A stretch of 24,846 nt of DNA from positions 1 to 24,846 of IMG/VR virus record IMGVR_UViG_3300030109_003025. One strand, 5' to 3'. Shown here one piece after another: positions 1 through 24,846 of this stretch; the stretch's first letter is position 1, and every line of letters starts with the position of its first letter. The stretch comes from a virus. The position numbers and the translations under genes are program-made. Under the pieces are notes generated by a model. That model saw nothing but the letters and a program-made list of their open reading frames with translations, was not told the origin of the DNA and ran no database searches.

Positions 1-123
1 CCAACCTGCTATGAGTGATGATAATACCGTAACGATAGCTACTATGTTTTGTATTGATAATCCAAACTTTGCGTTTTGTAGATTATCTACTAATTGTTCT
101 GCGTCTACTTGTTTCTTTGCCAT
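1..123 (-). CDS. Partial small membrane protein (3' end off the window)
   Basis: The first 41 codons of a minus-strand gene are visible, beginning at the ATG at 123-121. That ATG overlaps the TAA of the upstream 86-residue gene as TAATG, so translation is probably coupled. The N-terminus (MAKKQVDAEQLVDNLQNAKF) looks like an amphipathic helix. It is followed by a hydrophobic stretch (about residues 23-40) that reads as a membrane helix. The stop codon lies beyond the left edge. I do not recognise the family. A small membrane protein near the end of a late phage operon could be a holin or a membrane anchor, but nothing here proves either. Confidence 0.6.
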   Translation of the reverse strand, partial: MAKKQVDAEQLVDNLQNAKFGLSIQNIVAIVTVLSSLIAGW

Positions 124-444: not shown

Positions 445-558
445 CTATTTAAATTTGTTGTCTATCCAACATTTTCCATAATACATTAAACCTAACCAAA
501 TGGTAATTATAATACCATCAAAATAACTTAGGTTATTTAATTCTGCTAAACCTTCCAT
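445..558 (-). CDS. 37-residue single-helix membrane micro-protein
   Basis: This ORF begins at the ATG at 558-556, which overlaps the TAA of the PorV-like gene as TAATG, and ends at TAG (447-445). It encodes 37 residues: a short polar N-terminus (MEGLAELNNLSYFDG), a hydrophobic segment (about residues 15-27) that could cross the membrane once, and a basic C-terminal tail ending in DNKFK. No strong Shine-Dalgarno sequence precedes it, so coupling to the upstream stop is the likely initiation route. The product is unknown. Its place just after an outer-membrane protein gene suggests an envelope role, which is inference. Confidence 0.5.
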   Translation of the reverse strand: MEGLAELNNLSYFDGIIITIWLGLMYYGKCWIDNKFK

Positions 559-1412
559 TATAAGTCAAACCCAAATGAAATCAATAAAGTTTCGTTGTGG
601 AAACTATCTGTATTGTAATAATATGCTAATGATAAATCTACAATACCTGCGTCAATACTACCACCTAATGTGATGTAATCAACTTCAAATTCTGATTCTG
701 TGTAGTATCCTAATTTAAAACTTGCGATACCTAAGTCGTATTGTCCACCTAATCCGATTGAATTATAATCTTCAAACACTTTAACATCTGATGCTAATGT
801 GAAGTTTCCGAACTTCTGTCCAACACCAATACCTACTGACATAGGTAAATTAAGTGATTGGTCTAAGAATTTAGTTTCACCACCGACATCTTTCAATACA
901 ATACCTAATGATGTATTACCGAACTCTTTGTAAGCACCTAAGTCAAATCCATAATTCATATCAATATCAAAGTCATCAATAAAACTATGATTGTATAGAT
1001 TTAATCTTGCTCCAAACATCCAATCTTTAATTTGAAAACCATAACCACCACTTAATCTAAATGATGCGGATTCAAAATCTCCAAGTATAATACCACCTTG
1101 GTCTGCTTGTGTTTGTTCACCATAGTTAAAGTAAAATAGTTCACTTGACCAACCTATATCTGATGTATATAGAATACTTTGGTATCCCATATCGTCTGTT
1201 AGGTTTGGTAACCAATCTACATATGATATTTCTTGGTGTGATTCTCTTAGTCCTGCAAACGCTGGATTGTGAAATACATTTTTCACATCTGCGTGTGCTA
1301 TACCGACATTACCCATACCGGCACTATTCACACTTGGATTAAGTGTAAAGATACTATTTGCTTGTGCAAATAATGTTCCTGTTAATACTAATAAACTTAA
1401 TAATTTTTTCAT
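558..1412 (-). CDS. PorV/PorQ-family outer-membrane beta-barrel protein
   Basis: The 284-residue product starts with a signal peptide (MKKLLSLLVLTGTLFAQA) and continues with a conserved N-terminal block of the PorV/PorQ (UPF0164-like) family: N-P-S-x-x-S-A-G-M-G-N-V-G-I-A, then V-F-H-N-P-A at about residues 46-51. The rest is alternating strands rich in Gly, Tyr and Phe, ending SFGFDL, as expected for an outer-membrane barrel. In known type IX secretion systems PorV binds the C-terminal sorting domain of cargo and delivers it to the attachment complex; PorQ and other relatives have related roles. The protein is shorter than typical PorV. A GAGGG ribosome-binding site precedes the ATG. It lies 11 bases downstream of a gene whose product carries a T9SS sorting domain, so a dedicated partner role is likely. 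It could instead be a generic family member with another function. Confidence 0.72.
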   Translation of the reverse strand: MKKLLSLLVLTGTLFAQANSIFTLNPSVNSAGMGNVGIAHADVKNVFHNPAFAGLRESHQEISYVDWLPNLTDDMGYQSILYTSDIGWSSELFYFNYGEQTQADQGGIILGDFESASFRLSGGYGFQIKDWMFGARLNLYNHSFIDDFDIDMNYGFDLGAYKEFGNTSLGIVLKDVGGETKFLDQSLNLPMSVGIGVGQKFGNFTLASDVKVFEDYNSIGLGGQYDLGIASFKLGYYTESEFEVDYITLGGSIDAGIVDLSLAYYYNTDSFHNETLLISFGFDL

Positions 1413-1423
1413 CTTTATCCCTC

Positions 1424-4400
1424 TTATTTAATTATTGTAAATTTCTTAGACTTAATTTTGTTTTCAGTTTCCATTACGAATAAGTAAATACCTGCGTCTA
1501 ATTTTTGGTATCCACCATATCCTTCACCGAAGGCATCTGGTAAATCTGAAAAAGTGTAAGTGTGCATTCCGTCATTAACGACTTCATCTAATAAAGTTCC
1601 AACCTTTTGACCATTAGCGTTAAAAATACTAATCATCACATTACCTGATTGTTCCATATAGAATTGGAAGTTAATTGAACTATGTTCACTATCGTTATAT
1701 GGATTTGGGTAAACATAAGTCATCTCATCTTCTGATGGTTGTCCACCACCGAATGCCCAAAACTTATTCCATATATTTATTTTACCACTTTGTCTTTCCA
1801 TTAATAAGTCATCTCCGTTTGGATTACCAGCGTTAGCTTTTCCTACAAATTGTAAGTCTGCTTCTGTCCATTCTTGATTGTTATTTTCATTTAGTGTTGA
1901 ATTAAATACTAATTCCAAACCAACCATTTCTTCTGTAATGTAGTAATCTTGTGGTGCATTATTTGGTGAATTTTCTAATGCTCCGAATGATATTGTTTTG
2001 TATCCATAATCATCAATCTCACTTTCATTTAAATAAGTCATCCAAGGACCTGGTAAAGTTCCTGTTTGAGCGTCTGCAAATGTTAATTGGTTAGTATCGA
2101 ATCTAACTTCAAATTCAAATCCTGCAATCTTTGTAGGTTCTCCTGTTATCGCATCTACACTTGGTGTAATTGTCAATGGAACTACAACTTGATTACCCAT
2201 TTGAACTTTAACACTTCCGTCATCTGGTAATGATAAACTTACATCTACTGAGTTTGTAGCGATAACTTTACTTGCTCCGTCATACTCACCATTTGAATTT
2301 GTGTATGTCCAAGCTGTTGGTGCGTCATCACAAGTTGCATTTACACAATCTTGATTCCAAGATGTTGTTCCACCATTATCACTTTGAACCGTGTGTGTAT
2401 CCCAACGATAGTATGTTGCTCCTGCATATGCGTCTTGATATCCGTCTCCATTTTGTTCTTGAACTTTTGTTCCTGTTAGATTTATATCACCTGTAAAGTA
2501 GTATGCTATTTCATCTTCGGTATAATCTGGATTTACATCTCCGTCAGTATCTACATCAGGGTCATCAAATGTTGATGTTCCTGCTCCAACTTGAATTCGT
2601 AATGTATCTTGTCCTGTTTGAACTTCGTCCATCATATCTGGATTTGTCCAAACAATTCCACCAGCGTCTTTTTCAAGTTGCTCTGTTTCTTGGTCTAAAT
2701 TATCGTCCCAAAATACACTAAACTCTCTTCTTTGTTTTGTATCACCACCTCTAAGTGCTTGGTAGTAATTTATAGCTGGGTCTTCGTCAGAACCATTTGC
2801 TTTTAAGTTATCAATACTTGACCATTGTTGATATGTGTTTCCGTTAATGTGTGTATATGATGTTTCAAATACTCCACTTACATATGCCCATAAGAAATAT
2901 GTATCGTTTAATTGGAATACATCATCTCCATCTACATCACCAATCAAGTATCCACTTGGTGATTCTACTTTAATATCACTTGTGGTTTCAAATTTATTTG
3001 ATTGGAAATTAAATGATGCGATTGCGTCATTAATGTTTGTAATCGCTCCTCTATCTAATTCTAATTGTGTGTGAGAACCAATGTCATCAGCTGCGTCTGG
3101 TGGCCAGAACGATACTCTATAATTATTATTTCTTGGTAATTGAATATTGTAATATCCATTTTTATCTGTGTATGTATAATCAAAGTAAGATACACCTAAG
3201 AAACCATTACCAGGTAATGTTTGGTCTGCTAATGTTGTTGTTCCATTAGTATCTGTCATTTTTAGATAATAGTATGTTCCACTATCATCACCAATAACAT
3301 CGTCAGATAAATCCTCGTCTGCTGTATTTGAATCATCTGCTACATCTTCAATGTCATACCAATTAGTGTATGTTGGGTCGTCTGTTGTGTTTACGTCATC
3401 ATTGTTTTCATCTAACTCAAATACAACTTTCCAATAAGGATAAGTCTTTTGTTCAAAGTCATCACCATTATCTTTTACTCCATCTCCATTTACATCAACC
3501 CATTCACCAATGTATCTACCGAAACCTTCAACATCAACAAGTTTTGGATGTAGAGTAATGTCTCCTCTTGCACCTCCATTGTCTGTTCCATCTGTTCCCC
3601 AATTACCATCAATGTAAACTTTATAATCTAATAGGTAATCATCAGATACATAAGTGTAGTATCCATTACCACCCTCATAAAGTGTTGGTATTCTAAATGA
3701 GTGTGGTTCATAATTATCCACTACATCATTAATTCTAAATTGTAATTTTAATACTTGTGCTTGGTTTCCGTTTCCATTACCAAATGTAAAATCTGGCACT
3801 CCATCGCCTGCTCCATCATTTTCAGCAATATCAACTCCGTGACTTACCATAGTAATTCTTAACCAATCATAACTCGCATCTACTACTGATTCTTCATTAC
3901 CATTGTCTTGAATACCATCTTTATATCCTATATTTTCAAAGTGAACTACTTCGAAAGAATAGTCTGTATCGTTGTTTGATGTTTCATCACCTTCAGTCCA
4001 ACCTGATATGTGACTACCTTTAATTACTCGTGAGTTTCCTTGATTCCAAGCATTGACTGATGTTTCTGCTGCAATATCATTTCCTTGAGCATCCACATCG
4101 TTTGTATTCGGTTCAACCCAAGTAATTAGGTCGTTATCGAATGCGATGTCAAATCTGAATGTAGTAATATCTGCACCATTGTCATCTAAAGTTACTTCTA
4201 ATTCTAAGATATCATCTCTCCAAGAATCAAAATTGTTGTTTTTTAAAGCTGGTGTTGTTGTGTCGTCTGCTAAGAAAGTCTGTAATTGTACAGTCTCTTG
4301 ATTTTTCCACCAGTATTCTGGTGTTTTCCATTCACCGATTTGTTTTACTCGGATAATAGGGGTTTGTGCGAAAATTGTTCCAAACATCACCGCTGTCATA

Positions 4401-4426
4401 ACCATATTCTTCATAAAATGAAACAT
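1424..4426 (-). CDS. Secreted cohesin/dockerin-like protein with T9SS C-terminal sorting domain
   Basis: This 1000-residue product has a signal peptide (about residues 1-21, ending GTIFAQ). Residues about 70-110 look like a cohesin-like beta sandwich. Calcium-loop-like motifs occur at 311-323 (DVNGDGVKDNGDD) and 496-508 (GDVDGDDVFQLND). With the stretch at about 460-476, the second forms a two-repeat dockerin-like region. About 411-443 resembles a carboxypeptidase-regulatory-like fold. A clear cohesin-like domain spans about 727-886. Residues 904-1000 match a T9SS type A sorting domain: YPNPYN start, ISIFNANGQKV, then LDAGIYLF and KKFTIIK. The ATG follows GGAG with normal spacing. The gene lies 59 bases downstream of a tail gene with no terminator visible between, so late co-transcription is likely. 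It is probably exported and anchored on the host surface; incorporation into the virion is less likely given the signal peptide. Confidence 0.75.
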   Translation of the reverse strand: MFHFMKNMVMTAVMFGTIFAQTPIIRVKQIGEWKTPEYWWKNQETVQLQTFLADDTTTPALKNNNFDSWRDDILELEVTLDDNGADITTFRFDIAFDNDLITWVEPNTNDVDAQGNDIAAETSVNAWNQGNSRVIKGSHISGWTEGDETSNNDTDYSFEVVHFENIGYKDGIQDNGNEESVVDASYDWLRITMVSHGVDIAENDGAGDGVPDFTFGNGNGNQAQVLKLQFRINDVVDNYEPHSFRIPTLYEGGNGYYTYVSDDYLLDYKVYIDGNWGTDGTDNGGARGDITLHPKLVDVEGFGRYIGEWVDVNGDGVKDNGDDFEQKTYPYWKVVFELDENNDDVNTTDDPTYTNWYDIEDVADDSNTADEDLSDDVIGDDSGTYYYLKMTDTNGTTTLADQTLPGNGFLGVSYFDYTYTDKNGYYNIQLPRNNNYRVSFWPPDAADDIGSHTQLELDRGAITNINDAIASFNFQSNKFETTSDIKVESPSGYLIGDVDGDDVFQLNDTYFLWAYVSGVFETSYTHINGNTYQQWSSIDNLKANGSDEDPAINYYQALRGGDTKQRREFSVFWDDNLDQETEQLEKDAGGIVWTNPDMMDEVQTGQDTLRIQVGAGTSTFDDPDVDTDGDVNPDYTEDEIAYYFTGDINLTGTKVQEQNGDGYQDAYAGATYYRWDTHTVQSDNGGTTSWNQDCVNATCDDAPTAWTYTNSNGEYDGASKVIATNSVDVSLSLPDDGSVKVQMGNQVVVPLTITPSVDAITGEPTKIAGFEFEVRFDTNQLTFADAQTGTLPGPWMTYLNESEIDDYGYKTISFGALENSPNNAPQDYYITEEMVGLELVFNSTLNENNNQEWTEADLQFVGKANAGNPNGDDLLMERQSGKINIWNKFWAFGGGQPSEDEMTYVYPNPYNDSEHSSINFQFYMEQSGNVMISIFNANGQKVGTLLDEVVNDGMHTYTFSDLPDAFGEGYGGYQKLDAGIYLFVMETENKIKSKKFTIIK

Positions 4427-4485: not shown

Positions 4486-5469
4486 TTAGACATCAAATCT
4501 TACTACAAATGTAGTGTCGATATCTTTACTCATTTTGACTGGTTTTGCTAACTTTCCGTGAGCTAATAGTTCGTTGTCTTCACTATAAAGACCGACATTA
4601 GTCACATAAGGATTAAAGTCAGAACCCGTTGTTATGTCTATTGATTCAGTTGCTGCATTATAAAACAAAGCATAACTACCTGTTCCTTGACCTGTTGGTT
4701 TATGACTTGGCGGGAAGAAGTTGGACATTGAAACTGCCCCTTCTTTTACTGTGACACTACCACTTCTACCAGGTGTTAAACTGATATTTGTTGATGTGTT
4801 AAATTCAAATGGTTTACATCTTACACGATATTCATATTCATAAATTGTATGTGTTGATTTATACTTTAGAGTAAATGGTGATGTTGCTGCATCAGCGTAA
4901 GAACCCGTATCGGTAAATGCTAATAGTCCGTGTTTATAAAATATGTTTCCTACTTCACTACCACTACCTACTGCATTTGTAGTAGTTGTACTACCACTTA
5001 AAAAATTATTTGTTTTGAATGTTGAGAAACTTGCAGAGTGTGCATTATCATAAAGATTACCATCTCCGTCATCTCTAATATCATAGGTTACTCCACCAAT
5101 AGTTACTGATAAATCAAGTGTGCCGGGTTGTATTTCTTCTCCAAATAAATCCCTTGGAACACTAATAATTGATGCTGATAAATTTAATTCCCTATTGGTT
5201 ACTCCAGGATTCATACTACCGGTAATGTGGTCAGCATAAAATGTTTGATTTAACATATGCCAAGTTGGTAATCCATAATAGTTTGTTGTTACTGAACCTG
5301 ATGTTATTGATGTGATTGCGTCTGATGCGCTTGAGTAATTATATTGAGAACCACTACGAGCCTTAACACCAAAAACTCCACTTCCACTATCGTTATTAGT
5401 AAATGTAAAGTTCTTGTTGGCCTTAAAAGGCTTTATAGATTTGTCTTGTGGGTCAAGATTTTTGAACAT
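4486..5469 (-). CDS. Phage tail/baseplate structural protein (paralogue of the next gene)
   Basis: The 327-residue product is rich in Ser, Thr, Gly and Asn and has the strand-rich look of phage fibre or baseplate proteins. Its last 45 or so residues (VGLYSEDNELLAHGKLAKP onward) align with the C-terminus of the 347-residue protein encoded just upstream, so the two are paralogues in that region. I associate the VGLY-x-x-x-NELLA-x-x-KL pattern with structural proteins of marine T4-like phages, from memory. An AGGAC ribosome-binding site precedes the ATG by a few bases. A host-contact role is plausible because it is the last tail-type gene before the secreted-protein cassette, but a specific T4 equivalent (such as gp10 or gp11) cannot be assigned. 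Confidence 0.6.
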   Translation of the reverse strand: MFKNLDPQDKSIKPFKANKNFTFTNNDSGSGVFGVKARSGSQYNYSSASDAITSITSGSVTTNYYGLPTWHMLNQTFYADHITGSMNPGVTNRELNLSASIISVPRDLFGEEIQPGTLDLSVTIGGVTYDIRDDGDGNLYDNAHSASFSTFKTNNFLSGSTTTTNAVGSGSEVGNIFYKHGLLAFTDTGSYADAATSPFTLKYKSTHTIYEYEYRVRCKPFEFNTSTNISLTPGRSGSVTVKEGAVSMSNFFPPSHKPTGQGTGSYALFYNAATESIDITTGSDFNPYVTNVGLYSEDNELLAHGKLAKPVKMSKDIDTTFVVRFDV

Positions 5470-5478
5470 TAGTTTGTC

Positions 5479-6522
5479 CTAAAAATCAAGTTTCACTTTA
5501 ATAATAGCTTCCCTTGAATATGAATTTAGTAAAGGTTGAGATAGTTTAGCAATAGCTAATAGTTCGTTCTCATCATTGTAAAGACCAACTTGTGTAATAA
5601 AAGTTTTTGGGTCTTTATAGAAAGTTGCTTGTGTTAATGAACCATCTGATGCCGTAGCAAAAGTTGGATTAGAACTAAAGTTAAACTTCTTGTTGTTTAC
5701 ACGAACAAAGTAATTTGTTGAACTAATTTCTTCTTCTCTTCTTGCTTGGAAACTTGAGCCAGATTTAATTGAATTATAAAATGCCTGTGGTCTGTTGTTA
5801 AATGCGTCAGCTGCTCTTGGATTTACTGCTAATCCACCACTCGCTTCAACTTTTGGTGCATTCAATAATATCAAACCTAAGTCAGGATAAAACAATCCAA
5901 ATGAGCCGTGGTCAGTAGTTTCTGCGGCTGCTGTTGTTGCGACTCCATCAGATATTGTTCCACTAACAACATTAAACACTCTACCACCTTGATTAACGGT
6001 AACATCTGTTGTTGCTCCACTATCATCGATTAAGTGTGTTTTAGAATTTTTTGCGTAAAGTGGCATCAAACCAGTTAAAGTTAATTGCCAATTACCTGGG
6101 TCAATCTTTTCTCTTTGTCTTGCTCTTTGGAAAGAAACAAAATAAAAGTCTTTATCACCTGATGCTGTTGGTGAAGAAGTAAATTCAAATCTATCTGTAT
6201 TAGGTGCTAATAATACATTTCTAAATTGTCTATACATTGCTGCAGTATTTCTACCACCACTTGTTAATTTGGTTGTATTACCTGCTGAACCAGTTCCCTC
6301 AACGTGTGCATATCCGACTGCGAACTGAACTTCTGCAGAAGAATCTGAGTTTGGGTCTGCGTTGTATATATCTAAAAATGAACCTGTAATAGCTCCATTG
6401 AGTGATTGTGTAAAGAAAGTTGTAAGTGTACCTGAACCACCTGTCCATAATCCACTTGAGATTGTAGTTCTTTGATTTTCAACTACATCATTTTCTTTAT
6501 CAAATATTTGAAATGTCGACAT
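5479..6522 (-). CDS. Phage tail/baseplate structural protein with VGLY-NELLA C-terminus
   Basis: This 347-residue protein begins MSTFQIFDKEND and is dominated by Ser/Thr/Gly-rich segments, consistent with a virion surface or baseplate component. The C-terminal motif VGLYNDENELLAIAKLSQP is shared with the downstream 327-residue protein, which suggests an old duplication with diverged N-terminal parts. An AGGAG Shine-Dalgarno sequence lies before the ATG (about 6533-6539). The gene sits between the 237-residue structural gene and its paralogue, in the late module. The exact T4 equivalent is not identifiable by eye. Confidence 0.62.
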   Translation of the reverse strand: MSTFQIFDKENDVVENQRTTISSGLWTGGSGTLTTFFTQSLNGAITGSFLDIYNADPNSDSSAEVQFAVGYAHVEGTGSAGNTTKLTSGGRNTAAMYRQFRNVLLAPNTDRFEFTSSPTASGDKDFYFVSFQRARQREKIDPGNWQLTLTGLMPLYAKNSKTHLIDDSGATTDVTVNQGGRVFNVVSGTISDGVATTAAAETTDHGSFGLFYPDLGLILLNAPKVEASGGLAVNPRAADAFNNRPQAFYNSIKSGSSFQARREEEISSTNYFVRVNNKKFNFSSNPTFATASDGSLTQATFYKDPKTFITQVGLYNDENELLAIAKLSQPLLNSYSREAIIKVKLDF

Positions 6523-13097: not shown

Positions 13098-14261
13098 TTA
13101 TCTCACTACTCTAAATTCATATTCATCATCATAGTAATTAATTTGTTCATCATTTCCACTACCACTAACTACCTTGAAACAAAATCTATAATTTCTTTCT
13201 GCTTGCAATCCGTCCATTTGTATGTTGAAAAAATTACCTGTTGAATCACAACTAATTTTAGAACCTGTTCCAAATGGAATTATTTCTTCCTCAGTATCAG
13301 CGTCTTTTACTTGATAGAAAGCAGATGCGCTTGGTAAATATTTTACATCTAATTCTGCGGGTGTTGTTGCAAAAGCGGTTGTTGGATATAGTTCTCTACC
13401 AACTACTCTTAGTTTTACTTTTGACTTTTCCTTGTATTCAGGTCTTAAATTTTTAAAATAAACTTTTAGTCTTTCTAAGTCTGTTGCTGTTAATGCAGAC
13501 AAACTTCCTGTTGACCAACTTGAATCATCCCACACTGCTTCTAATTTAGGTGGATAGATTGTATGTGTTTCTCTTGAAAAGTATTTTAGATTTCCTAATC
13601 GAGTTGAGTCACCTTCTTGTCCTGAAGAAAAATTAAACATTGATGATGATGGGTGTTCTCCGTAAGAACCACTATCTTCTCTTTTAACAATGAAGCCGTT
13701 GTTCGGGTAAATAGAACTCGAATGAATCCAATTGTTTACTAAGTCAGTTACATCTGCCCTAACATCTTTATCATCAAAAGTTAAGTTGTATGAAGAACTG
13801 ATATTGTATTCTTGTCCAGAAGCGTAACTTGATGTAAACCAAGTTCCTCCGTCAGTCAATACTGAACCCGTTACCCAAGGTGTTTTTGCCTCGTGGTCAC
13901 GATATTGAAAACTTGCTCCGTCATCGGTTACTGGATTGTGGTCAAGTTTTCCTGTTCCTTGTTTCCAACTACCACTAACCATATAGATGTGTAGTGGTTG
14001 TTCTGCTTCAACCTCTTCTGAAGTTGCGTCGAATAAATTTAAATAATATTTTGTAGTAGAAGGCATCAGACCACTTTGAACTGACTCAGAAATATAACTT
14101 AAGTCAAAGTCAATCAAGATTCTTGATACATTTCCAATTGTTCCACTTTGTTGAACAACTTTATTAATTTCTAATATCTCATCTAATCCAGTATTAATTG
14201 AAGATGTTGTTCCACCTGAATAGATTGTTGTATCTCTTTTTCCAAATTCAAAATAATGCAT
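13098..14261 (-). CDS. Baseplate-module protein with DNRLRE/CBM-like beta sandwich
   Basis: Residues about 20-248 of this 387-residue protein follow the DNRLRE-type pattern: an IDFDLS strand, YYLNLFDA, HIYMVSGSWKQGTG, a VTDLVNNWI segment near residue 170, NNGFIVKRED, and closing PPKLEAVWDD. DNRLRE domains are found in extracellular and surface proteins and are related to some carbohydrate-binding modules. The remaining 140 residues form further beta-rich structure. The start overlaps the gp6-like stop as TAATG. Position directly after gp6 suggests a wedge component; a glycan-binding role is possible but not shown. Confidence 0.6.
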   Translation of the reverse strand: MHYFEFGKRDTTIYSGGTTSSINTGLDEILEINKVVQQSGTIGNVSRILIDFDLSYISESVQSGLMPSTTKYYLNLFDATSEEVEAEQPLHIYMVSGSWKQGTGKLDHNPVTDDGASFQYRDHEAKTPWVTGSVLTDGGTWFTSSYASGQEYNISSSYNLTFDDKDVRADVTDLVNNWIHSSSIYPNNGFIVKREDSGSYGEHPSSSMFNFSSGQEGDSTRLGNLKYFSRETHTIYPPKLEAVWDDSSWSTGSLSALTATDLERLKVYFKNLRPEYKEKSKVKLRVVGRELYPTTAFATTPAELDVKYLPSASAFYQVKDADTEEEIIPFGTGSKISCDSTGNFFNIQMDGLQAERNYRFCFKVVSGSGNDEQINYYDDEYEFRVVR

Positions 14262-16228
14262 TATTTGTCTCCTATGACCATACCCTCGATATCAGCATCA
14301 GGGAATTTCAGTTCAAATATACTTGGGTCTAATGAAGGATATATAATTCCATCTTTTGATGCGGAATCAATATCATAAACATTACCGCTATATCCATCAC
14401 TGGCTTTATATTTATTTTCTATTACAATTAAATTCTTTTGTGGATTGTTTGTTTCTGGTGCAACAATAGAAACAACTCCGTCAACTAACGATAGTTGATA
14501 TGCTAAATCACTCAACACAATTGGTTGATTAATTTGCCACTTTTCTGTTGCGAAGAAGTTTTTAACTTGTTGTATTGCTCTAAACAATACATCATTTTTA
14601 TTATATCCTCTACGAGTTATAATATTAAATTTTACACCGATGTTTATAACATATGCGTCTTTAAGATTAATCGCATCTGTCAATACTCTATATTGGGATA
14701 GATATGTTTTTAAATTTTGCTTTACTGCTTGATTGACTGCAGCTAATTTTTTAGTTCCTGTATATCCTAATAAATACATATTTAATGCTAATGGGTTAGA
14801 TTTTTCTGATGTTATAGTTTCAACCTGCCCATTGTTCACTTGTAGTTGAGTTTCTTCTAATTGTTCATCTTGAACAATAAATGCTTTTGCAATATTACCA
14901 TACTTTTGTGGTAATGAATAAACTCTTGTAATGTAATCTGCTTTTGTAACTGCTCTGTTTTGTGCATTGAAATATGCTGCAGCATTTTCTTTAATCTCTC
15001 TTAGTGTCTCTTCACTTGCTCCACCCGATGAAGGTAGTTGATTGTAAACTCTTAGACTTGAATCAGCTGTGAGTGCCGTGTCACTATTTAAACCTGTTGT
15101 GCTATTTGTATAGACTTTTCTATTGAATCTATTAATTGTGTTGGATGGAACATTATGTTCTACCGCTCCACCATAATTGTAAGTTATGGTTAGTGTTGTA
15201 TTCGCTGGTGATAATCCAAATGTTTGTGTTTTTAAAAAGTTAGTTGGGTCAAATGACTCATCTAATCTCGATACACCCGTTCCTAATGATGAACCAACAT
15301 TATCAGGATTTGGAATTAGTTCTTCGTCTGCGTCCGAACTAATACCACTACCGAATCTTAGTTCCATTCTATCATCTTCACGAACATAAGTTGTAAATCT
15401 TTTTGCTGTTTTAATTAGTTTTAATAAGTATGGCGCATCGTTTTGGTATTGAGATAAATTTGGGTCATTCAATGTTGTATTTTCTTCTGATTCAAAAATT
15501 GTATCTTGTGCTAAGAAAGGAACTTGATACCAATCATTTCCTTCACTATCAACACAAGAGACTACTTCAGTTACTTTCTTTTCTGACAATACTATCTTGT
15601 CAAACTTTTTAGCGCCAGTAAATACGAATTCTTCACTTGTTCTTGTTCCAGATTTTGCTATTCCTTTTTTAGTTAATCTGTAATTTGTAGGATTTGTTCC
15701 AGAAGATGGTTGTAACATTTCAACATCCATCGTATCTAATGAACTTGATACCTTAAAGTTTACATCATCTAATAAAGTAAATTCTGTTCCGTTACTTGAA
15801 ACAACGGTAGAATTAGCTTCTATCTTTCCTGCATAATCTAAGTCTGCTTTAAATTTTCCACCACCCAAAGCTTTAGCAGGAACATCTACTTGAAATGATA
15901 ATTCTACTGTTGAAGGTGCTGCTAATCTTGGTTTGTATCCATATGATTGTGCGATTGCCAATACATTTTTTCTTTCTTCTGCAAATTGTAAAAGTGTTTC
16001 TCTGAATTGATTATCAACATAGTAATTCAATACATCACCGACATATGCTGCCATTTCAACAAACATCATACCTGGTGATGCTTCATTGAAATCATTGTAT
16101 TGATTTGGGAAATATGATTTCGCAAATTCAATTAAATTTTGTCTGATATCACGGAAATCTCTACCGAGATAATTTACCTCTTTCTTTACTAACTTCTTAT
16201 TTGTTCCGTAATCTAACCTTGCTGGCAT
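14261..16228 (-). CDS. 6: Baseplate wedge protein, gp6/J-like
   Basis: This 655-residue protein starts MPARLDYGTNKKLVKKEVNY with the segment DFRDIRQNLIEFAKSYFPNQ, then SPGMMFVEMAAYVGDVLNYY, a signature of gp6/baseplate J-like wedge proteins. The C-terminal half contains ENAAAYFNAQNRAVTKADYI and a segment around VKNFFATEKWQINQPIVLSD, both usual for the J-like domain. In T4, gp6 dimers form the inner ring that joins the wedges around the hub. It lies immediately after gp25, the conserved partner order in contractile injection systems. Length is close to T4 gp6 (660 residues). Confidence 0.88.
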   Translation of the reverse strand: MPARLDYGTNKKLVKKEVNYLGRDFRDIRQNLIEFAKSYFPNQYNDFNEASPGMMFVEMAAYVGDVLNYYVDNQFRETLLQFAEERKNVLAIAQSYGYKPRLAAPSTVELSFQVDVPAKALGGGKFKADLDYAGKIEANSTVVSSNGTEFTLLDDVNFKVSSSLDTMDVEMLQPSSGTNPTNYRLTKKGIAKSGTRTSEEFVFTGAKKFDKIVLSEKKVTEVVSCVDSEGNDWYQVPFLAQDTIFESEENTTLNDPNLSQYQNDAPYLLKLIKTAKRFTTYVREDDRMELRFGSGISSDADEELIPNPDNVGSSLGTGVSRLDESFDPTNFLKTQTFGLSPANTTLTITYNYGGAVEHNVPSNTINRFNRKVYTNSTTGLNSDTALTADSSLRVYNQLPSSGGASEETLREIKENAAAYFNAQNRAVTKADYITRVYSLPQKYGNIAKAFIVQDEQLEETQLQVNNGQVETITSEKSNPLALNMYLLGYTGTKKLAAVNQAVKQNLKTYLSQYRVLTDAINLKDAYVINIGVKFNIITRRGYNKNDVLFRAIQQVKNFFATEKWQINQPIVLSDLAYQLSLVDGVVSIVAPETNNPQKNLIVIENKYKASDGYSGNVYDIDSASKDGIIYPSLDPSIFELKFPDADIEGMVIGDK

Positions 16229-16230
16229 TT

Positions 16231-16638
16231 CTATTCTCCGATATTAAAATTAAATGTTATAGTTTCGAATGAGTCGGGTTCTAATGATACTGAAAACTCT
16301 AATGACACATTAACTTCATTGGTATCACTGGTTTCAAGAACTTGTATATCGATTATGTTTATATAAGGTAACCAAGAAGAAGTAGCATCTCTAATAGCTT
16401 CATCAATTCTATCTCGTAAACCTGGACCTTGTTCAAAAATAAGTTCTTTTAATCTTGAACCAAATTCTGGTTGCATTACCCTTTCACCCTTTGATGTTAA
16501 TAGTAAGTTTCTTAAATTAGATTTTGCCTGTTCGAGTATAGTTTTTGTTTTATAAAAAAACCCCTCTGGACTATGGTCTAATGGAAACCTAATACCAACA
16601 TACTTGTCGTCATTTTTATCTATTTCTCTTACACTCAT
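16231..16638 (-). CDS. 25: Baseplate wedge protein gp25 (lysozyme-like fold family)
   Basis: The 135-residue product matches the gp25/GPW family in length and pattern. It has RFPLDHSPEGFF near the N-terminus, the conserved core motif QPEFGS at residues 56-61, and a C-terminal strand LEFSVSLEP. In T4-like tails gp25 sits at the junction of wedge and sheath and helps start sheath polymerisation. Despite the family name it is structural, and no catalytic claim is made. It is two bases upstream of gp6. Confidence 0.9.
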   Translation of the reverse strand: MSVREIDKNDDKYVGIRFPLDHSPEGFFYKTKTILEQAKSNLRNLLLTSKGERVMQPEFGSRLKELIFEQGPGLRDRIDEAIRDATSSWLPYINIIDIQVLETSDTNEVNVSLEFSVSLEPDSFETITFNFNIGE

Positions 16639-22129: not shown

Positions 22130-22855
22130 TTATAAATTATCCCAACTACCTGTCCATTTGGTTTCAATCGAACCAGTGGTTAAGTAATTCTTTTGTAAAT
22201 TAGTATGATGCTTTTTCATCACATTCACTACTCTTGTAATGTGTTGTGTATTTGAATTGGTCATCTCTCTAATCATAATGTAGAGAGCTTTCTTATTAAA
22301 GTTCTCAATGTTTTGACGATTCTCCATTAGATACAATACTGCGTTAGCAACATCCATATCTTGTTTTCTTTTGAAAACAGTAGTCAAATTGTTTGACCAA
22401 TACTCAATGAATAAGTCAACATACTCTTTCTTTGCTTGAAGTAAATCATCCCTTGATGCTTCTGATAAAGGATTACGCTTGTAATCAGTTACTTCCTCAC
22501 TATCGTGTTGTTTTAGTTTTTTGTAATTATTGTTGTTGTGTAGAATCAAATAGTTCTTAGCAACAATACTAAAATAACTAAATGCCTTACCCTTACCTTC
22601 AGTAAATTTATGCATATTCATATATAAGAATGAAACCACTTCGTGTTTAACATCCTCACTTGGAACATCAAAGTAATAAAACTTAAATGTGTGAATGATA
22701 TTTTCAGCCAACTTTTCAAATGGTGTTCTGATATGTTCATTATAAATTCGTTCCCTCATATGTGGACGAGTTTCTTTGTTATGTCTAATAACTGCCTGTT
22801 CTGTTGAATCTGTAAAGTAATATCTTGTTGAACCTTTTTTAGCTTTTCTTGGCAT
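22130..22855 (-). CDS. 55: gp55-like late sigma factor
   Basis: The 241-residue product has a sigma region 2-like core at about residues 46-104: FEKLAENIIHTFKFYYFDVP, then EDVKHEVVSFLYMNMHKF, then GKGKAFSYFSIVAKNYLIL. This is the pattern of gp55 homologues in marine T4-like phages. T4 gp55 replaces the host sigma on RNA polymerase, directs it to TATAAATA late promoters, and connects to the sliding clamp. It is longer than T4 gp55 (185 residues), with an extra C-terminal helical part. It overlaps the upstream 76-residue gene as TAATG. A late promoter that it should read lies at 19259-19266. Confidence 0.78.
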   Translation of the reverse strand: MPRKAKKGSTRYYFTDSTEQAVIRHNKETRPHMRERIYNEHIRTPFEKLAENIIHTFKFYYFDVPSEDVKHEVVSFLYMNMHKFTEGKGKAFSYFSIVAKNYLILHNNNNYKKLKQHDSEEVTDYKRNPLSEASRDDLLQAKKEYVDLFIEYWSNNLTTVFKRKQDMDVANAVLYLMENRQNIENFNKKALYIMIREMTNSNTQHITRVVNVMKKHHTNLQKNYLTTGSIETKWTGSWDNL

Positions 22856-23085: not shown

Positions 23086-23340
23086 TTATAATTCCTTTTC
23101 TGTTATTTGGTTTAATTCATCTACGGTAGATTTGATTGATTGGAATACAATCCCAACTTCATCATCGGCTTCAAAGTTTCCTTTGTCGTCAATTTCTTTT
23201 AACACTTGTTGAGTATCGATTATTCTTTGTGCATAATCCTCCACCCAAGTTTCTAATCTTTCAACTTTTCTTGTAAGGTTAAATATAACATAACCTTCAA
23301 CTAAAGTCAAGAGAATAAATAAAATTAAAAAATAAATCAT
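23086..23340 (-). CDS. Small membrane-anchored coiled-coil protein
   Basis: This 84-residue product has an N-terminal membrane helix (about residues 2-22), a probable coiled coil (about 25-48), and a conserved-looking block GNFEADDEVGIVFQSIKSTV near the C-terminus. From memory, small proteins with an FEADDEVG block recur near transcription and replication genes in marine T4-like phages; no function is known to me. The ATG overlaps the previous stop as ATGA, and its own stop directly abuts the next ATG. Confidence 0.6.
   Translation of the reverse strand: MIYFLILFILLTLVEGYVIFNLTRKVERLETWVEDYAQRIIDTQQVLKEIDDKGNFEADDEVGIVFQSIKSTVDELNQITEKEL
23282..23310 (-). promoter_or_regulatory. Possible internal sigma-70 promoter for the gp55 gene
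   Basis: Inside the 84-residue gene, TTGACT (23310-23305) and TATATT (23287-23282) are again exactly 17 bases apart, the same hexamers and spacing as the two intergenic promoters. The A8 tract is missing. It would transcribe the 76-residue gene and the late sigma gene. A chance match is possible because the region is coding. Confidence 0.4.
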
Positions 23341-24122
23341 TTCTTTGCCTCCCCAAATAGTTCGTTAAATATGTCCTTTGCGTCTGATGATTCCGTATTA
23401 AACTTCTCTTTAACTTCAGTATCAACTGCTTGTTTTATATTCGTTACTGACTTCTGAACCTTTTCTGATTCAACCTTATCTCCTCGTTTCCATTGGTCTC
23501 CCTCAATGTGAGTTGCCATCATATCTGCTTGGTGTAAGATATAAGCGATATTACTTTTTAAAGTAAAGTCCTTGTTGTATCCTTTAAGGTATTTTTCATT
23601 ACCTTCTTCATATAGTCCGTCTGTTAATCTTAGTCCAATATATTCCCATTCAGTCATTGGTATTTCAAAGTGTCCTAATATCCAACAAGCCCTATCAGTT
23701 ACAGTCATATATTGTAATTCTGGATTGTGTGTAAATAACTCTCCACGATTTTTTACAAACCAATCATTTTCTTGTGGTAAATAATAATCGTGTTCTAAGT
23801 TTCCGACTTTACCTAAGTCGTGATGAAGAGCTGCAAATACTAATTCCTCATTAGTAAAATTAATTGTTGCTCCATTCTTTTCCCACATATCTCTGAGTTC
23901 TTGTGAGAACTTTACAATATGTAATATGTGTTCTACATATCCACCCACCATAGCATTATGGAAATGTTCTTTACCACTTGCTGGCGCTACTATCATTCTG
24001 TCTTCAAAAAAATCATACATCTTATTTAGCTTTTCTAATCTTTCACCACTAAATGTATTGTTAACAATTGTTCGTAAGTCTGTCCAATTGTTTGTAATTT
24101 GTTGTTCTGTTAATTGTTTCAT
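23337..24122 (-). CDS. HD-domain metal-dependent phosphohydrolase
   Basis: The start chosen is the ATG at 24122, which overlaps the preceding stop as TAATG and has AGGAAG upstream; this gives 261 residues. A longer reading to 24167 would need a TTG codon and a 46-base overlap. The HD motifs are complete: H53/H55 in KEHFHNAMVGGYVEHILHIV, H100-H101-D102 in ALHHDLGKVG, H151 in LGHFEIP, and D200 in LHQADMMATH. The pattern resembles the HD domain of YhaM-type 3'-5' exoribonucleases, without their OB-fold. It probably hydrolyses a nucleotide or nucleic acid during infection; the substrate is not shown. Confidence 0.75.
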   Translation of the reverse strand: MKQLTEQQITNNWTDLRTIVNNTFSGERLEKLNKMYDFFEDRMIVAPASGKEHFHNAMVGGYVEHILHIVKFSQELRDMWEKNGATINFTNEELVFAALHHDLGKVGNLEHDYYLPQENDWFVKNRGELFTHNPELQYMTVTDRACWILGHFEIPMTEWEYIGLRLTDGLYEEGNEKYLKGYNKDFTLKSNIAYILHQADMMATHIEGDQWKRGDKVESEKVQKSVTNIKQAVDTEVKEKFNTESSDAKDIFNELFGEAKK

Positions 24123-24846
24123 TATCTTCCTATATCCTTCAGGTACTTTTCTTTTGCTTCTTCCCAAGAGATGTTAATCATACCTGAATAAAATAACTTC
24201 TCGGGTTTAATTCTGTTTTGTTCTAATAGGTTTTCATATCGTTTGATTGCTTTACGCTTCCACCAACTATCAATGTATTCAATATCTCTATCGAACATAT
24301 TTCTAATTACCAATTGGTCTTCATTGATTTCACTTCTTAGAAATTCTTTTCCATTTTGATATATGTTAGCAAAGTAACAACCTCGTTTGAATCCGTGTTC
24401 ATACTTTGCTCTCTTAATATCTAATTCTTTATATATCAATTGAATAATCTTTTGTTTGATACCCGTTACTGGCTGACCTGTTTTGGATGTTGTAACTCTT
24501 TTGTAATCCTCGGTTTTGTTTTCTTTTAACCATTGATGCCAAGTATCATAAAATGAATCATCTGGTTTTAAACTAATCTTACCTTTAGTTTCACCTAATG
24601 TTTTCCATTGTGGTATTCCATTATACATTGAATGAATACCATACAACGCTGTTGTTGATATACCGACTAATGTTTGTCCGTATAGTTTCTTCCAAGTATC
24701 ACGAACAACCTTCGAAGTAACCATTTGTGCTACCAACTTACCACCCAACATATTGAAACCTAATGGTTGAACACAACATATAGTTGTTCCGATTGCAGTG
24801 TGATTTAGTTTTCCGTCTTGGAATTTGTTTTCTTTAGACCAACCAA
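24122..24846 (-). CDS. DruA/DUF4338-like protein (5' end off the window)
   Basis: The frame is open from the right edge, so the first in-window ATG (24751) is probably internal. At least 240 residues are visible. GWSKENKF, then LNHTAIGTTICCVQPLGFNM, WKKLYGQTLVGISTTALYG and WKTLGETKGKI follow the DUF4338 layout, in which an IGW segment, a conserved N-x-T region, a W-x-x-x-Y-G motif and a TKG motif appear in this order. DruA is a component of the Druantia anti-phage system, but phages also carry family members of unknown role. The C-terminal half is helical and basic. It begins the coupled block that ends with the late sigma factor. Confidence 0.55.
   Translation of the reverse strand, partial: GWSKENKFQDGKLNHTAIGTTICCVQPLGFNMLGGKLVAQMVTSKVVRDTWKKLYGQTLVGISTTALYGIHSMYNGIPQWKTLGETKGKISLKPDDSFYDTWHQWLKENKTEDYKRVTTSKTGQPVTGIKQKIIQLIYKELDIKRAKYEHGFKRGCYFANIYQNGKEFLRSEINEDQLVIRNMFDRDIEYIDSWWKRKAIKRYENLLEQNRIKPEKLFYSGMINISWEEAKEKYLKDIGR

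Follow-up and report, generated by a model that had tools for sequence, protein, structure and literature searches.

A PorV-related outer-membrane barrel beside a type IX secretion cargo-like gene in uncultured marine T4-like phages

In the type IX secretion system (T9SS) of Bacteroidota, PorV acts as a shuttle for proteins that carry a C-terminal sorting domain. In Flavobacterium johnsoniae PorV is required for type A sorting domains, and low shuttle abundance limits the secretion of overproduced type B cargo (PMC12618676). Phage genes with type A sorting domains, presumably using the host T9SS, occur in Cryophage (PMC7468147) and crAss-like phages (PMC6949934), and marine T4-like pelagimyophages carry a curli (type VIII) operon (PMC7029224). 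Here we describe a gene pair in the virus record IMGVR_UViG_3300030109_003025 of IMG/VR, of which positions 1 to 24,846 (24,846 nucleotides, referred to below as the window) were analysed. In this pair a gene for a large protein with a predicted T9SS sorting domain (the cargo) is followed by a gene for a PorV-related outer-membrane barrel. The same arrangement is shared by a family of T4-like phages that are marine and uncultured, which suggests that these phages bring a carrier of their own for the display of a protein on the cell they infect. Sorting-domain cargo of phages and curli-type genes of viruses are already known, and the new part is the PorV-family barrel beside the cargo; no earlier case of a phage-borne T9SS PorV-type shuttle was found in open-access papers, among named phages or in a viral structure library. 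Our reading, to which we give a probability of roughly 0.6, is that the two genes make up a type IX secretion module, encoded by the phage, in which the phage shuttle would display the phage cargo on the infected cell via the SprA translocon of the host.

A preliminary description of this DNA, made from its letters alone, had called the first gene T9SS cargo-like, and this assignment holds. Specifically, the C-terminus of the protein (residues 905-998 of 1000) matches the type A sorting domain model TIGR04183 with 31.5 bits relative to a cut-off of 23 bits, and the cargo proteins of three related phage contigs reach 38.6-39.4 bits. The Pfam model Por_Secre_tail gives 23.6 bits, slightly below its cut-off of 27, and the sorting-domain profile searched against solved structures returned T9SS sorting domains as its first and third hits, both weak (E 0.032 and 0.17). 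A complete sorting domain is kept by the cargo in every member of the family. Elsewhere in the protein, residues 737-791 match Pfam Cohesin just above the cut-off (24.9 versus 24.1 bits), a CarboxypepD_reg match is weak and below cut-off, and a dockerin-like stretch, GDVDGDDVFQLND, was recognised by eye. The AlphaFold2 model of the cargo is of low confidence, with a predicted local distance difference test score (pLDDT) of 38. As side observations, 36 of 53 cargo-bearing contigs (L012-L064) terminate within the cargo gene, suggesting that variation between strains interrupts assembly at this point, and the synonymous divergence between the window and contig L002 is 0.11 for the barrel and 0.60 for the cargo, a sign of recombination.

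The second gene was described beforehand as a PorV/PorQ-like barrel, and both sequence and fold place its product with PorV rather than among unrelated porins. The window barrel matches the family model NF033709 (PorV_fam) with an E value of 8.7e-25 and 88 bits, relative to a cut-off of 90 bits that four of its relatives exceed (90.2, 101.5, 113.1 and 102.1 bits). When a profile of nine phage barrels was compared with the PDB, PorV was the sole significant solved relative (7.9e-10). The AlphaFold2 model of the barrel (m62c77b415205; pLDDT 79, predicted template modelling score 0.78) is of the FadL type with 14 strands by our own count on the model, and its top two Foldseek matches are both PorV (8gl6_F at 4.4e-11 and 6h3i_F at 1.9e-10), with FadL homologues ranking below. 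Nothing alike was found in the viral structure library, where the best query TM-score among the matches listed is 0.43, and named phages gave no match to either the cargo or the barrel. In a tree of phage and Marinimicrobia-phylum barrels, which took in no Bacteroidota barrels, the sixteen phage barrels fall together in a single clade, whose stem measures 1.82 changes per site and which is separate from the fifteen Marinimicrobia-phylum barrels. As judged from this tree, the phage barrels are an old phage lineage and not a recent acquisition.

We also compared gene order across related viral contigs, where searches had returned 18 barrel loci and 53 cargo loci. Among sixteen distinct contigs that contain a complete cargo gene and at least 890 bases beyond it, the barrel is the next gene after the cargo in all sixteen, with one small open reading frame inserted between the two in three of them. 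Together with L198, L199, L208 and the window, every one of the 20 contigs able to show the pair has both genes; the other cargo contigs stop before the end of the cargo gene or just beyond it, and are uninformative on pairing. Thus the recurrent pairing looked for in relatives is present, and among these 20 contigs no case of the two genes occurring apart was seen. Both genes are under purifying selection, with ratios of nonsynonymous to synonymous substitution of 0.10-0.25 for the barrel and 0.15-0.34 for the cargo, and a Shine-Dalgarno site for the barrel is usually present in the short gap after the cargo.

The two products also appear to be exported. A cleavage site of the form [AG]-Q is kept in 15/15 cargo proteins and 16/16 barrels, and the cargo, read from its sequence and not by a predictor, has the hydrophobic N-terminus of a Sec signal peptide ahead of this site. 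The similar GT(I/L)FAQ endings pointed out earlier are present in the window, but as a shared tag they do not stand, as relatives conserve only [AG]-Q. A Q after the signal peptide is also found in other exported proteins encoded nearby, and the Q-rule of Bacteroidetes exported proteins is reportedly followed by Porphyromonas phages too (PMC10653852). On sequence grounds, the likeness of the two endings is ordinary signal-peptidase and Q-rule usage and no pair-specific tag.

The pair is conserved, but it is just part of a larger conserved envelope cassette. In longer contigs the barrel is followed by a single-transmembrane coiled-coil protein, often an FdxA-like ferredoxin, a protein with a CsgG-like motif, a second protein of barrel type, another exported protein and, last, a transmembrane coiled coil. 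In one clade the block is preceded by tail-associated genes and followed by a resolvase-like gene and primase; in a second clade it stands between portal and head genes. The cassette is likely one functional unit because its order is kept in these two genomic locations. The kinship of the CsgG-like protein with CsgG, addressed in four tests, is suggestive and unproven: PF03783 matches one of eight members (E 0.018), an hhalign comparison with E. coli CsgG gives a probability of 2%, and the PDB returned no hit. The ferredoxin gene found within the cassette of many phages codes for a 4Fe-4S protein (for example L007:11409-11693 and L006:11517-11801).

Two neighbours of the pair make envelope lysis the main rival explanation. 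The last cassette gene has Rz-like spanin matches in 4/4 cases tested, and in the second clade a holin gene lies just upstream of the cargo; holin-family genes of this kind (E about 1e-30 to 1e-31) are found directly or nearly upstream of the cargo at L208:2322-2738 and L024:5104-5511. The barrel and its neighbours could then form an outer-membrane lysis or envelope-weakening module, with the likeness to PorV being ancestry only and the cargo marking or loading the outer membrane late in infection. However, the spanin matches are weak (E 4e-5 to 1e-3) and fall within coiled-coil regions, the window's clade has no holin beside the pair, and lysis alone leaves unexplained why every cargo retains a full sorting domain. 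We consider this explanation unlikely.

Evidence from a cultured phage bears on the secretion module reading. Flavobacterium phage vB_FspM_immuto_2-6A (NC_055915) carries a related cassette, gp013-gp019 (L214:8704-14583), which includes a C-type lectin protein. It shares with the marine cassette, with order kept, a protein in which cohesin and T9SS sorting domains are each above the Pfam cut-off (gp015), a transmembrane protein, a CsgG-like protein (38% identical to its marine homologue), a barrel-like protein with a TDPC region common to the second barrel, and a homologue of gp019. The parts of the cargo appear as separate proteins in immuto, the likeness of the cargo to gp013 and gp014 is not significant, and it is possible that gp013-gp019 form a surface complex via cohesin-dockerin contacts.

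A scan of genomes with the barrel alignment returned nothing, and the lead to a host came from a scan with the phage ferredoxin. In the ferredoxin tree the phage proteins group with Candidatus Neomarinimicrobiota (support 97/94), and two Neomarinimicrobiota genomes nest among the phage rows. Within the Marinimicrobia phylum, 183/199 genomes are matched by the phage barrel profile; the strongest matches are to genomes 0.7-1.0 Mb in size, in each of which the profile matches once. In 20 small Marinimicrobia genomes used for T9SS tests, SprA (TIGR04189) is above cut-off in 17 and sorting-domain proteins are present in 18, two to four in each; the likeness of the phage cargo to these genomes is confined to the sorting domain. 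A search for the GldM/PorM motor gave no match in the candidate hosts, and none in control genomes either. The use of Shine-Dalgarno sites makes a Flavobacteriia host unlikely, since 60-64% of the genes in these phages have such sites and none do in immuto (0/19); enrichment of the sites in the Marinimicrobia sample is weak (11% versus 3%), and tRNA was of no help. Pelagic Marinimicrobia are likely the host, an assignment that is reasonable but indirect. In three larger genomes of this phylum (L153, L154 and L156) an exported protein closely follows a PorV-family gene, and shuttle-cargo neighbours may thus exist in cells.

In the proposed secretion module, the cargo and the barrel would cross the inner membrane by Sec, and the cargo would cross the outer membrane through the SprA translocon of the host. 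The phage barrel would receive the sorting domain as PorV does and leave the cargo on the surface of the infected cell. The phages may bring their own shuttle because sorting-domain proteins are few in the streamlined host and its best-matching genomes have a single profile-detected barrel, so that a burst of phage cargo would be limited by the capacity of the shuttle. With its cohesin-like and dockerin-like parts the cargo would most likely be a surface adhesin or coat. As to its purpose, exclusion of competing phages or holding cells together are our leading conjectures; cell aggregation has also been proposed for the pelagimyophage curli genes (PMC7029224). The reading is supported by the family and fold of both proteins, by their invariable co-occurrence, by purifying selection and by the conserved cleavage site, as well as by the block order seen in two places, the frequency of SprA and of sorting-domain proteins in candidate hosts, the grouping of the ferredoxin with Marinimicrobia, the sorting-domain cargo in the immuto cassette, and the dependence on PorV and on shuttle supply known from F. 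johnsoniae.

Several results weigh against this reading. The PorU sortase (NF033707) is above cut-off in 0/20 of the candidate host genomes, where nearly all matches are restricted to the sorting-domain part of the model, so that delivery to the attachment complex, the route that the preliminary description gave for PorV in cells, is not borne out here. The window barrel reaches only 45.5 bits with the PorV equivalog model NF033710 (cut-off 250; relatives at most 69.3) and 66.8 bits with the PorQ equivalog model NF033711 (cut-off 220), and as neither is reached, the barrel counts as a member of the family but does not qualify as PorV proper. No PorV-family gene was found in the immuto genome when looked for; sorting-domain cargo belongs to the cassette of two phage groups and the PorV-like barrel to the marine group only. 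The identity of the host is itself something we infer. Finally, distances between sorting domains and barrels are uncorrelated (Mantel r 0.06, p 0.33), and those between sorting domains and passengers are correlated (r 0.78). Of the 'dedicated' module that had been proposed, strict pairing at the gene level therefore survives and tuning at the allele level does not. Missing allele tuning is expected if any barrel takes a conserved core motif, and equally if the two proteins never touch.

The lack of allele matching could also fit a decoy, in which the barrel would occupy SprA or host cargo and so block or redirect type IX secretion by the host, the phage cargo being a competitor or a secondary passenger. 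The barrel is short (284 residues relative to the 402-residue solved PorV chain), and the long stem noted above places it far from host barrels. Nevertheless, its obligate linkage to a sorting-domain cargo fits transport better than blockade, and cargo and barrel are both conserved as intact exported proteins, which makes a decoy quite unlikely. A place for the cargo in the virion or tail fibre, with a generic Ig-like fold mistaken for a sorting domain, is very unlikely: in the window's clade the cargo gene does follow immediately on tail-associated genes, and contigs break inside it as variable fibre genes can cause, but every member has a signal peptide with the conserved cleavage Q, the second clade has the whole block away from tail genes, and an outer-membrane barrel cannot belong to a virion.

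Returning to the secretion module, we tentatively extend it to a broader proposal, in which lytic phages may encode their own shuttle for their own displayed protein within a portable trans-envelope cassette that remodels the cell surface via the host type IX translocon. This cassette would comprise the cargo, the PorV-like barrel, the transmembrane coiled coil, the CsgG-like protein, the second barrel and the spanin-like protein.

The two reading frames lie where the preliminary description had placed them, with the same 11-base spacing (Table 1). Its phage context is likewise confirmed, as baseplate wedge genes (14261-16228 and 16231-16638) show the window to be a genuine contractile-tail phage and its gene order is repeated in independent contigs. 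A chimeric assembly was ruled out by the identical order across many such contigs. The two genes upstream of the pair have no family match, and their role is assigned from position. Full-length homologues of the truncated gene at the contig end are found at L006:10979-11389 and L007:10996-11409. Elsewhere in the window, 22130-22855(-) looks, on inspection by eye only, like a late sigma factor of phages, 23337-24167(-) has matches to phage families of metal-dependent phosphohydrolases, and ATAAATA late-promoter-like sites are not enriched (17 versus 16 by chance).

Table 1. Positions of the gene pair and of other features in the window.
Feature	Position	Strand	Remarks
Cargo gene, 1000 aa	1424..4426	-	Signal peptide, CarboxypepD_reg-like and dockerin-like stretches, cohesin-like domain, C-terminal type A T9SS sorting domain
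Cargo sorting domain, last 97 residues	1427..1717	-	YPNP ... GQK ... GIYLF ... KKFTIIK
PorV/PorQ-family outer-membrane barrel, 284 aa, with signal peptide	558..1412	-	NF033709, PDB profile search, Foldseek
11-base gap, GAGGGATAAAG	1413..1423	-	Contains Shine-Dalgarno site for barrel gene
Next cassette gene, start only (single-transmembrane coiled coil, MAKKQVDAEQLVDNLQNAKFG...)	1..123	-	Contig end cuts gene
Two tail-associated or fibre-like genes, 327 and 347 aa, upstream of the pair in the window's clade	4486..6522	-	Conserved order in relatives
Baseplate wedge genes	14261..16638	-	phrog_219, phrog_6, phrog_261, phrog_43

If the broader proposal is true, it would make this the first phage on record that contributes a component of the T9SS machine and not cargo alone. 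A working module would mean that a phage brings machine parts to run a secretion system of its host, and would provide a handle on phage remodelling of the surface of the probable Marinimicrobia hosts; the cargo side is directly testable through the related cassette of the cultured Flavobacterium phage. Relative to PorV (PDB 6h3i and 8gl6), the phage barrel is alike in being its best match in sequence and fold among solved structures, in its 14-strand FadL-type architecture, in the Q after its signal peptide and in being accompanied by a sorting-domain protein. It differs in being shorter, below the equivalog cut-off, phage-encoded and paired with one cargo, and its binding to SprA and to the sorting domain is putative. 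The PorP/SprF-like shuttles of F. johnsoniae (PMC12618676) are also encoded directly downstream of their cargo, and their supply can limit secretion; however, their cargo is of type B, whereas here it is of type A, the shuttle belongs to the PorV/PorQ family and no allele specificity was seen. For Cryophage and the crAss-like phages only cargo was mentioned, whereas the phages described here add a PorV-family barrel, in a conserved cassette. Finally, the pelagimyophage curli operon is likewise a secretion-related envelope operon, and in those marine T4-like phages it has replication genes on one side and structural genes on the other, but it is built on CsgG and CsgF, whereas in the cassette described here kinship to CsgG is suggestive only and the route of the cargo appears T9SS-like.

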